Positions 53,653-60,745 of a DNA stretch of 64,000 nt are shown here, piece by piece. The position numbers were made by a program, and so were the translations under genes. Position 1 is the first letter of the stretch. The number at the start of each line of letters is the position of its first letter. Source of the stretch: Stenomitos rutilans HA7619-LM2. Its GTDB lineage: Bacteria; Cyanobacteriota; Cyanobacteriia; Leptolyngbyales; Leptolyngbyaceae. The notes under the pieces were generated by a model that saw only the letters and a list, made by a program, of their open reading frames with translations, was not told where the DNA came from and ran no database searches. The stretch is taken from NCBI GenBank assembly GCA_019358945.1, contig JAHHIE010000037.1, positions 1 through 64,000 of the forward strand. The letters run 5' to 3'.

Positions 53653-55869
53653 CTAAATTGGTGCGTGCGTCTGCTCTTTAACCGTTTCAGACGCAACAGG
53701 TTGGGTTGGCTGCGGTCGTCCAACGCCATCTGTAAACGTATAGCTTTGCGCTAACAGCCACAGCCAGAAACCTGGTAAGCGTGGTTCTAGCCAGGGCTGG
53801 ATTTGCCGTAAGAGTGCTGGAAACCAACCGCTAATGAGGCTGCTGACAAACGCGCTGATGGTAAAGTCCAGGTAGCTGCCTAGCCACCGCCCCAAGTCTA
53901 CGGGGCCTGCCATCTCCCAGATCCACAGCAGCAACTTCGGATTTTTCCAGGCGGCCGTGAGCGCCATACGGTTAAACGTCAACCAGTCCACGCGATCTTT
54001 AATGAACGCTTCAGCGATCGTGGGTGGTTGGTCTGCCAGAATGCCAAAAAAGGTGTTCAGCATCGCATTGACACGCTCAGGCGGCAAATTGCGACCAGTT
54101 GGCACCATCATGCCTTTAGAAAACAACCAGGTCACGGCGACATTGCTTTGGTAGGCGCGAATCTGGTTTAGATGTTTAGCGCTGAGCAGGTCATGTTTTA
54201 AGGCCGTATCGAGCAGATGTGTCAGGCGAGGAAGGTTGCGTACCAGCGAACCAAACCCCGTGAAAATCAATGGTGATTGGAGCGAGGCCGCATCACCCAG
54301 GGCAATTAAGCGATCGAACGCCACCTGGCGATCGCTCCGACCTGTGGTAAAGTGCCCTGGAATATAGCCGAATGTCGGCTTCTTCCAGACCAGCTTTTCC
54401 ATATCGCAGCGGCGATACTCTGGCAGGATGGTAAAAAAGTCTTCGTACATTTCCAGCAAGGAGCCTGGATTTTCGGGATGCACCTGGTGATAGTGAAACA
54501 GGTAAAAGGTGAGTGCTTCGCCATCCGCCGGAAACAGTTCCCAAATGAGCTGCCGCCCCCGTGAAAGATCCCCGTGACTGTTCAGCACGTCCCCATAGCG
54601 AGCATCCCAGACACCCGGTTCAAAGCCACTTTCAATCACGGCTCCTACCGTTGGACAAACGCTATCAAACGCACGTCCACCGTTAAGTTGCCACGCGATT
54701 GGTGATGCAGTGCCCATCGCATCGACCAGCAGACGACCGCTCACCGATCGCAGGTCACCTGTCGGAAGATGTTTTGCTTCCACCACCTGAATGCGATCGA
54801 CATCTGCACGGATAAATTCCGTTTCATCCCAAATCTCGCCACCGTAGCCACGCAACTTCTCACCACAGACGCGCAGCAGCTTTTCTGCATCCAGCCCGAC
54901 GTTTAAGACCGTTGGCGTATGCAGCACGGGTGCTTTTGCCTGCGGTGGATTGTTGGCATCAAAAAACTTGTGAAACCCGTCTATATATTCTCTGGCAATG
55001 ATGCTTTCAAACTCGCTGGGCGTGAATAACCCTAAGTTGATGAGACTCTGAAACTCACTGCGCGAGATATTCCATTCCCGGTTCATTTTGCCAAACGGCA
55101 ACCGCTCCACCAGCAGCACCCGATAGCCCAGCTTTGCCATCACCGCTGCATGAATGACACCCAGGGCACCACCGAGGTAGATCAGGTCGTAGGAGGGTGA
55201 GGAGAGAGGGGTGAGGAGAGAGGGGTGAGGAGAGTTTTGAGTTTTGTTCGCGTAGCGTTTCCGTAGAAAATATTTTGAGTTTTGAATTGATTCTGCCTCT
55301 TGCCTCCTGCCTCCTGCCTCCTCTCCCCTAAACACCACCTGTCGCGGTTCTTTCGGATTCTTCACCCCTTCGCGCCAGCGCTGCTCCCACCAGTAAACGC
55401 GAGTAAGGTCATACTCACCGTTTGGCATTTTCTGGAAATACTTAACCGTCTGAGGGTACTGTGCAACCAGTGCGTCAAAGATTGATTGGCGAGAGAGGTC
55501 GATCACGGGGGGCTGCGGGTACTGATTGGGAAAGCGATCGCGAAGCGCCAGCGTCAGTTGTTTCAGCAGGCTCTTTTCAGACGGTACGGGCTGCTCCGCC
55601 CAGCGAAAGACTTTGAGATAGGTTGTCCGCTGCAACGACCAGACAAAAATGGCTAGGGCAGCAGTCTCCATTTGGGTCTCTACCGTAGGCGTTTCTAGCG
55701 GAGTCGTTAGGAGCACGGTTAGGCGAATGCCGCTATTTGTAGGCGTTTTTACACCTGTTTGGGGTTCAAACTCCCCCTGTAGCCAGGTTTTCACCGCTTC
55801 TACGTCTGACGTAGGGATTTCTAGATACAGAACTTCCTTCATTTGGGGGAGCCAAACTTTAATAAACAA
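53653..55869 (-). CDS. CruA/CruP-type lycopene-cyclase-like flavoprotein with repeat insertion
   Basis: 738 residues. Residues 1-185 are not recognised. The FAD-binding Rossmann start lies near 231, DLIYLGGALGVIHAAVMAKL, with GYRVLLVER closing it. PFGKMNREWNISRSEFQSL strongly recalls CruA/CruP, and GRLLVDAMGTASP and IALGDAASLQSPLIFTGFGS are flavoprotein motifs. The family includes gamma-carotene or lycopene cyclases and the CruP paralogue, whose role is less clear. Residues about 182-222 are coded by a repeat insertion (55195-55325) that keeps the frame. Start ATG 55869. Confidence 0.78.
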   Translation of the reverse strand: MFIKVWLPQMKEVLYLEIPTSDVEAVKTWLQGEFEPQTGVKTPTNSGIRLTVLLTTPLETPTVETQMETAALAIFVWSLQRTTYLKVFRWAEQPVPSEKSLLKQLTLALRDRFPNQYPQPPVIDLSRQSIFDALVAQYPQTVKYFQKMPNGEYDLTRVYWWEQRWREGVKNPKEPRQVVFRGEEAGGRRQEAESIQNSKYFLRKRYANKTQNSPHPSLLTPLSSPSYDLIYLGGALGVIHAAVMAKLGYRVLLVERLPFGKMNREWNISRSEFQSLINLGLFTPSEFESIIAREYIDGFHKFFDANNPPQAKAPVLHTPTVLNVGLDAEKLLRVCGEKLRGYGGEIWDETEFIRADVDRIQVVEAKHLPTGDLRSVSGRLLVDAMGTASPIAWQLNGGRAFDSVCPTVGAVIESGFEPGVWDARYGDVLNSHGDLSRGRQLIWELFPADGEALTFYLFHYHQVHPENPGSLLEMYEDFFTILPEYRRCDMEKLVWKKPTFGYIPGHFTTGRSDRQVAFDRLIALGDAASLQSPLIFTGFGSLVRNLPRLTHLLDTALKHDLLSAKHLNQIRAYQSNVAVTWLFSKGMMVPTGRNLPPERVNAMLNTFFGILADQPPTIAEAFIKDRVDWLTFNRMALTAAWKNPKLLLWIWEMAGPVDLGRWLGSYLDFTISAFVSSLISGWFPALLRQIQPWLEPRLPGFWLWLLAQSYTFTDGVGRPQPTQPVASETVKEQTHAPI
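55195..55325. repeat. Repeat insertion inside the CruA/CruP-type gene
   Basis: Contains GAGGAGAGAGGGGTGA tracts and a 50-base block (55232-55281) whose reverse complement matches 59901-59950 in the tocopherol-cyclase gene with one difference. It keeps the reading frame and lies between FRG and SYDLIYLGG. Confidence 0.8.
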
Positions 55870-56000
55870 CTAAAAGAGACGGGTTGAACACAGTTAAAAA
55901 TGCGCTAAACTTCAGTGACGCTTTTCGAGTTACGTAAACGTTACAAGTTTCTCATAAATCTTTCAGACTACCTGAACTCATTCCTTTGTTAGCATCTGTC

Positions 56001-56234
56001 ATGAATTATCCTATGCCAGCGCACACCGCAGAAGGTGGTGGACTCCGACAGAAATTTGTCGATGAGGAAAGGATTGCAGCCGCGATCGTCGGGGTTGTAA
56101 ATGTGGCGCGTACCAATGGTCAGACGCTCGAAGACTTGATAGCAGAGGTTTTAGTCGATGATGCTCTGCTCGATTCGCAGCAGCGGCAGTGGCTCAGCGA
56201 AATTATTGTAGCGGCCTGGAAAACATTACCTTAA
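56001..56234 (+). CDS. Small protein of unknown function
   Basis: 77 residues from ATG 56001; the frame opens 15 bases earlier at 55986. After a polar N-terminus it is helical: DEERIAAAIVGVVNVARTNG, LEDLIAEVLVDDALLD and WLSEIIVAAWKTLP. No signal peptide or metal site. The amphipathic pattern and normal codon usage support a real gene. I do not recognise the family. It lies divergent from the CruA/CruP-type gene. Confidence 0.6.
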   Translation: MNYPMPAHTAEGGGLRQKFVDEERIAAAIVGVVNVARTNGQTLEDLIAEVLVDDALLDSQQRQWLSEIIVAAWKTLP

Positions 56235-59488: not shown

Positions 59489-59536
59489 CGTCCTATTCTA
59501 TCTTCCGCACCACCACCACAAACTAATCCCAGTCGC

Positions 59537-60745
59537 TTGCAAACCCCTCACAGCGGCTACCACTGGGACGGCAGCGATCGTCGCTTTTTTGAAGGCTGGT
59601 ACTACCGCGTGACGCTACCTGATTGCGGTCAAACGTTTGCCTTCATGTACTCCATAGAAGACCCGATCGGCGGCCAGCCTTATAGCGGTGGAGCCGCACA
59701 AATCCTTGGGCCTCATGACGAATATTTGTGCCGCACCTTCCCGGATGTAACAACTTTCTGGGCGTGGAAGCATGCGTTAGGATTGGGGCATTGGGGTAAG
59801 AGGAGAGAGGAGAGAGGAGAGAGGGGCGAGGAGGCAGAGGGCAGAGGGCAGAGGGCAGAAGGGAGTCAGGAGTCGGGAGTCGGGAGTCGGGAGTCAAGAA
59901 AACTCAAAATATTTTCTGCGGAAACGCTACGCGAACAAAACTCAAAACTCAAAACTTTTTCTCTCGCCCCCCACTACCTTTCCCCCAAACAGTTCACCGA
60001 ATTTGTCCAGGAAGGCTATCAAGCAACGGCTACTTGGCATCAGGGAATTCTGCGGGAGCCATCAGGTGCATCGGCACGGTGGGCATATCAAATTGAGCCA
60101 GTGTATGGCTGGGGCAACGCGAACCGTCTCCAACAATCAACGGCAGGTTGGCTTTCATCGCTGCAAATCTTTGAGCCGGGCTGGCAAATTTTGATGGCGC
60201 ATGGATTTGCTACAGGCTGGGTTGAGTGGAATGGGCGGCATTACAACTTTGAAAACGCCCCTGCCTATAGCGAAAAAAACTGGGGTGGTGCCTTTCCGCA
60301 GAAGTGGTTTTGGCTAAACTGCAATAGTTTTGCAGGTGAACCAGATCTGGCACTAACAGCGGGTGGTGGTCGTCGGGGCGTATTGTGGTGGATGGAATCG
60401 GTAGCGATGATTGGGGTGCATTATCGCGGCACGTTCTATGAGTTTGCGCCCTGGAATGCTCAAGTGCACTGGGAGATTCAGCCTTGGGGACATTGGCGCA
60501 TGTGGGCGGAAAGCAGTCAGTATACCGTTGAGCTAATGGGTACTACTGATCTTCCTGGTACGCCGTTGCGTGCTCCAACGGTAGAGGGACTGGTCTTTGC
60601 CTGTCGTGACACCATGCTGGGGCACATCACACTACGATTGCACGATCGCCAACGTCACACGCTTTTGCTAGAGGCACACAGCGATCGCGGTGGGTTAGAA
60701 ACAGGTGGCGAGTCGTGGGATGGCGTTTGGAGAAGTGCTGGCTGA
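59537..60745 (+). CDS. Tocopherol cyclase (VTE1/Slr1737 type) with repeat insertion
   Basis: 402 residues against about 360 in the family. The opening [20 protein letters not shown] is the family signature; later [40 protein letters not shown] and [19 protein letters not shown] match too. The enzyme closes the chromanol ring of tocopherol. Residues about 88-142 are coded by a repeat insertion (59797-59965) that keeps the frame and lies between LGLGHWG and [14 protein letters not shown]. The start is TTG 59537. Confidence 0.88.
59797..59965. repeat. Repeat insertion inside the tocopherol-cyclase gene
   Basis: Consists of GAGAGGAGAGAGGGGCGAGG tracts, GGGAGTC units and a 50-base block (59901-59950) that matches the insertion at 55232-55281 in inverted orientation with one mismatch. 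All three phases remain open through it. Confidence 0.82.

Follow-up and report, generated by a model that had tools for sequence, protein, structure and literature searches.

Tandem heptad repeats with embedded hairpin elements reside in frame within protein genes of Stenomitos rutilans

STRR heptads have long been known in cyanobacteria (PMC2670836; PMC4692102), including upstream of genes (PMC2670836) and, in a case cited in a later paper, inside the RNase P RNA gene (Vioque 1997, as cited in PMC2858038), and the G-rich heptads of Nostoc are under-represented in coding regions (PMC4692102). The SDRs of Nostoc are described in a citing paper as small hairpin elements (Elhai et al. 2008, as cited in PMC4390886). 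Elsewhere, the RPEs of Rickettsia occur as in-frame repeat insertions in a wide range of unrelated genes (PMC10969869), and REPIN/RAYT systems comprise short hairpin repeats scattered through bacterial genomes, that of Nostoc punctiforme among them (PMC3116915).

A 64,000-nucleotide stretch of the Stenomitos rutilans HA7619-LM2 genome (hereafter the window) carries two copies of a 50-base block, at 55232-55283 on the minus strand and 59899-59950 on the plus strand (98% identity, one difference), in the two genes where a preliminary description had placed them. A 32-base core of the block occurs once exactly and once with a single mismatch in the window, against an expectation of 0 (100 shuffles). 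With a probability of about 0.8, this block belongs to a genome-wide, mainly selfish or neutral population of STRR-type heptads with embedded SDR-type hairpins of approximately 25-27 nt, which within genes are kept in frame and are copied between loci. The two host genes and their inserts are arranged as follows.

53656-55869, minus strand: CruA/CruP-type gene (lycopene cyclase family), host of insert 1; 738-aa open frame
55192-55329, minus strand: insert 1, heptad/SDR mosaic, 46 residues in frame; borders from 29 homologues
55195-55234, minus strand: C-rich heptad arm (sense strand) of insert 1; plus-strand consensus GGGTGAGGAGAGAG; Tandem Repeats Finder, 2.9 copies, 100%
55246-55272, minus strand: SDR-like hairpin element TATTTTCTACGGAAACGCTACGCGAAC of insert 1; repeat copy, covarying stem
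55293-55322, minus strand: G-rich heptad arm (sense strand) of insert 1; plus-strand consensus CTGCCTC; Tandem Repeats Finder
59537-60745, plus strand: tocopherol cyclase gene, host of insert 2; PF14249, E 9.7e-158; 402-aa open frame
59798-59965, plus strand: insert 2, heptad/SDR mosaic, 56 residues in frame; borders from homologues with 5-9 aa linkers
59799-59833, plus strand: AGAGGAG heptads of insert 2; Tandem Repeats Finder, 5 copies
59833-59859, plus strand: GGCAGAG heptads of insert 2; Tandem Repeats Finder, 3.9 copies, 100%
59861-59895, plus strand: GGGAGTC heptads of insert 2; Tandem Repeats Finder, 5 copies
59910-59936, plus strand: SDR-like hairpin element TATTTTCTGCGGAAACGCTACGCGAAC of insert 2; repeat copy, covarying stem
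59936-59956, plus strand: CAAAACT heptads of insert 2; Tandem Repeats Finder, 3 copies, 100%

Both host frames yield the peptides that the preliminary description had quoted for the block. Homologues of the first host were found in 75 of 77 relatives; a Pfam search of its protein returned no hit, and the CruP designation is the name given in that description. The ATG at residue 10 is its probable true start, and the stop codons seen in CruP relatives most likely lie upstream of this conserved start, because the open frames of these relatives hold the insert intact. When borders are set in both genes with homologues from 77 genomes, insert 1 spans 138 nt between the flanking motifs QVVF and YDLIYL and insert 2 spans 168 nt between GLGHWG and APHYLSP. 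Distant CruA/CruP-type homologues have approximately 10-20 residues between QVVF and YDLIYL, and distant cyclase homologues mostly have 5-9 residues at the corresponding site; 67 of approximately 79 named homologues likewise have a short cyclase linker there (6-9 residues). These short linkers support the original proposal that the segments are in-frame insertions rather than native domains, and the same peptides were not found at the same sites in distant cyanobacterial homologues. In AlphaFold models, residues 184-222 of the CruP-type protein and residues 93-142 of tocopherol cyclase have pLDDT values below 50 and match the inserts, both of which are therefore modeled as disordered loops.

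At the cyclase site, Fischerella (L218, L219), a member of another cyanobacterial order, has an independent and unrelated repeat-rich insert of 57-67 residues in the same loop, and this loop is thus permissive for insertions. A further indication of this tolerance is a direct duplication (ETRFLKETGFLEPADFKDSETRFLKETG) in the same loop of one relative (L210 Argonema antarcticum, L232).

The opposite orientation initially ascribed to the two copies holds for the chromosome and not relative to the hosts, as AAAACTC is on the sense strand in both. The hosts being encoded on opposite strands, the block runs the same way along each gene, and only its reading frame differs. Likewise, the block does occupy both genes but is not confined to them; its next best matches in the 7.28-Mb genome are in pheT (59 bp, 90%) and ileS (44 bp, 91%).

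The inserts display a recurrent order, in which G-rich heptads (AGAGGAG, GGCAGAG, GGGAGTC, GGTCAGC, GGAGTCA) are followed by AAAACTC heptads and often by C-rich heptads (CTCACCC and similar). Embedded in the AAAACTC heptads are two hairpin elements, element A of approximately 27 nt (TATYYYCTNCGGRRACGCTWCGCGAAC) and element B of approximately 25 nt (TCTAGCGNAGCGGCGCAAAGCGCTA). The 27-nt core of element A is present in the inserts of TC, CruP, PheT, IleS and MetH, and its stem covaries, with at least four complementary 5-bp versions (TTTTC/GGAAA, TCTCC/GGAGA, TTCCC/GGGAA and ACTCC/GGAGT). In rsmG and priA, element A is nested within element B, which is in turn nested within heptads. Embedded hairpin elements reside in coding genes at 9 of 10 loci, an enrichment spotted after the fact; a Fisher test of it combined different counting rules and is given no weight. 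Both components are patchy within the class, a 22-nt AAAACTC array being present in 20 of 155 sampled genomes and matches to the element A core in 25 of 155.

The AAAACTC clusters are also polar, with a purine-rich left and a pyrimidine-rich right flank in 37 of 41 cases (random mean 0.00, sd 0.11 at 50 bp), alike inside and outside genes and on both strands. A general hairpin function of the inserts was considered and set aside, since in RNA folding only the CruP insert, a single hairpin, is clearly better than shuffles (z -3.4), and the others remain near shuffle level; for the tocopherol cyclase copy of element A alone, the covarying hairpin is not the best fold. These features bear on the kinship with Rickettsia palindromic elements suggested in the preliminary description. 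In a reading of this kind, one discrete mobile palindrome would transpose as a unit into genes and be kept in frame there. The polar flanks, the single CruP hairpin and the in-frame insertion into unrelated genes are all compatible with such a family, but a conserved full-length element is lacking, the heptad families vary both within and between inserts, the other inserts fold no better than described, and only the core of approximately 27 nt recurs. It is accordingly unlikely that a palindromic family of this type is involved, and the inserts are instead hypervariable mosaics in which 7-bp tandem repeats are combined with hairpin elements of approximately 25-27 nt.

The distribution of these repeats was surveyed in stretches totaling 1.23 Mb, or 17% of the genome. 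Period-7 arrays number 125 in this sample, against 0-10 at the neighboring lags from 5 to 11, and group into 101 clusters. Under a rule demanding 70 or more open codons to either side of a cluster, which is blind to arrays containing stops, 32 of the 101 lie in frame within 25 long ORFs and 69 lie outside. Of random 45-bp stretches, 51% satisfy this rule as opposed to 32% of the heptad clusters, which are thus only mildly depleted in genes, and so slight a depletion is not easily reconciled with purely random insertion combined with strong selection. No frame-broken gene was detected in the 1.23 Mb, all six candidate interruptions being intergenic or antisense frames. Extrapolation to the whole genome would give roughly 150 host genes.

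The host families include RecN, RsmG, RecJ, squalene-hopene cyclase, arginine decarboxylase (SpeA), a CheA-like kinase, IleS, PriA, the O-antigen ligase family, AnmK, a PAS histidine kinase, XdhC-like, ThiO, PheT, PepN-like, heptosyltransferase and LeuS; a MetH-like host protein was recognized by eye. For PheT, LeuS, IleS, SpeA, AnmK and RecN hosts, among others, the full-length family assignment spans the insert, and in PheT, two stretches aligning to solved structures such as 2rhs are separated by a break at which the insert is located; in those structures approximately five residues form the spacer. With aminoacyl-tRNA synthetases, DNA repair proteins and biosynthetic enzymes among the hosts, the shared role of the two window genes in pigment or antioxidant metabolism is a coincidence, as was initially thought possible.

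Heptads are found elsewhere in the window. Immediately upstream of an ABC transporter gene, positions 57177-57228 contain GGGAGTT and AAAACTC heptads; the TTG-started ORF of this gene reads through them (MGVGKTQNSKLRTQNFSMTPAV), and for this reason its real start is probably a later ATG. Crowded heptad and nonamer arrays (GGCAGGG, GCAGGGGAA, ACACCCC) occupy positions 40272-40396. A 21-bp tandem array of 12.6 copies (GCACGACTGAGCTTAGAGATA) at 8868-9131 is probably a repeat within a protein gene.

The behavior of heptads in coding sequence follows from simple arithmetic. Because 7 is coprime with 3, a heptad array encodes one and the same 7-residue peptide whichever frame is read (KTQNSKL for AAAACTC, SAVSGQR for GTCAGCG and GSRESGV for GGGAGTC), so that any stop-free heptad is tolerated provided that the array length overall is divisible by three. 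Read in reverse, as GAGTTTT, the AAAACTC heptad has a TGA in every frame. The sense orientation of AAAACTC prevails 17:0 in genes, a ratio that is partly circular through the ORF rule, and 15:11 between genes. Approximately 40 inserts, drawn from eight genomes and six sites and located by homology rather than by ORF, are all open, and they constitute sequence evidence independent of that rule.

Phase-variable (contingency) behavior, in which a gene would be turned on or off by the frameshift that follows when a single 7-bp unit is gained or lost, has a natural basis in that 7 is not a multiple of three and single-unit slippage must shift the frame. Nevertheless, no off allele exists among these inserts, and many hosts are indispensable aminoacyl-tRNA synthetases, leaving contingency loci very improbable.

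The preliminary description had proposed that selection was for keeping a frame open and not for a peptide. This is supported by the hairpin core, which is read in one frame in TC, PheT and MetH, in another in CruP and in a third in IleS; the heptad part does encode a constant peptide, 7 being coprime with 3. The loops could conversely be peptides under selection (as tags, linkers or interaction motifs) whose coding by repeats is incidental, as the constant hydrophilic heptapeptides and the repeat-like inserts of Fischerella in the same cyclase loop might suggest. However, the peptide differs from species to species, the core is read in three frames across genes, and one same-genus IleS orthologue has an empty site, so that selection for particular peptides is likewise very improbable. 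Least probable of all is removal of the insert from the RNA or its skipping by the ribosome (intron-like or by translational bypassing), for although purine and pyrimidine arms could draw the insert borders together and 30-60 extra residues burden essential enzymes, removal would lift the constraint on frame and stops, and when the inserts were compared with introns, inteins and bypass elements, for which freedom from coding constraint or splicing motifs would be expected, those of approximately 10-80 residues were all stop-free and in frame.

The preferred reading, heptad mosaics kept in frame and copied between loci, draws further on comparison across species. All seven genomes of the genus (Stenomitos/Tildeniella group) and G010 have longer inserts at both window sites, consisting mostly of recognizable heptads whose sequence is different in each genome. 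At the IleS site, G001 is empty (QRSELK), G005 and G010 have a common heptad insert, and Stenomitos rutilans HA7619-LM2 has this same insert plus elements B and A. Similarity was compared among inserts at six coding sites in eight genomes; its mean is 21.3 between different genes within one genome, 18.8 between orthologous sites of different genomes and 13.2 for unrelated pairs across genomes, and the within-genome value was equaled in 0 of 2000 permutations of genome labels. The cyclase and CruP inserts match each other in four species, each with its own sequence, and match best in G006 (129 identities, including a shared non-heptad junction, GGCAGAAGTGGCTYACCC). Gene neighborhood does not account for these matches, as G001 and G002 match from different contigs and the two genes are neighbors without a match in G003 and G004.

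On the strength of shared non-heptad junctions such as that in G006, the species-specific cyclase/CruP matches suggest copying between genes. A heptad vocabulary particular to each genome, or “dialect”, could produce similar resemblance, but the shared junctions argue for copying. Tentatively, and with somewhat less than even confidence, active copying may spread and homogenize frame-agnostic heptad/hairpin cassettes among unrelated protein genes of one genome; the loops of essential enzymes would then undergo concerted evolution within each species and be replaced from one species to the next. In G010, the LeuS gene (G010:C1:1401939-1404520) is broken into several frames at a distance from the insert, and another LeuS-like ORF, more distantly related, is present on C2 (G010:C2:683493-685367); sequencing error and gene replacement are candidate readings.

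As judged from sequence, then, all the in-gene inserts examined are stop-free, in frame, variable between sister species at the same site and partly shared with the inserts of other genes in the same genome. The mosaics lie in intergenic DNA and, to an unusual extent, within genes at permissive surface loops, where they would be translated and retained by the protein as disordered linkers of hydrophilic character. Purifying selection would then maintain an open frame and a tolerable loop, while the arrays would change through slippage and segments including hairpin elements would be copied from locus to locus, with template switching or gene-conversion-like repair between the repeats as the probable route.

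If this is true, repeat DNA usually deemed intergenic junk would steadily supply core enzymes, three aminoacyl-tRNA synthetases among them, with new disordered loops, and the tolerance of a 7-base unit would have a simple reason in its identical reading in every frame. The species-specific cross-gene inserts would offer a natural system in which to measure directly how tiny elements are copied from gene to gene and how well essential proteins tolerate random linkers.

The components themselves are already known. A search of the non-subscription literature yielded no report of in-frame heptad arrays in cyanobacterial protein genes, and as far as the literature searched shows, what is new is the widespread in-frame residence in essential genes together with homogenization across genes within a genome. 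In contrast to REPIN/RAYT repeats, no REP doublet structure was seen in the Stenomitos elements. With RPEs they share in-frame residence in unrelated genes, here 25 ORFs, but RPEs form defined families of approximately 150 bp, whereas the Stenomitos mosaics are hypervariable, are without a palindromic consensus of approximately 100-150 bp and share short stretches only. SDRs are reportedly short hairpins (about 21-27 nt) whose stems show compensatory changes and which sit within heptads and inside one another. The Stenomitos elements, set against SDRs by description only, are similar in size, in having several dispersed copies, in their compensatory stems, in heptad embedding and in nesting; they differ in belonging to the Stenomitos-group lineage and in that the embedded copies lie mainly in coding genes. 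Like STRRs, the Stenomitos repeats are tandem 7-bp units of many families, over-represented and dispersed through the genome, and the difference concerns location rather than repeat identity, about one-third of the clusters being in frame in protein genes and thus more genic than reported elsewhere.
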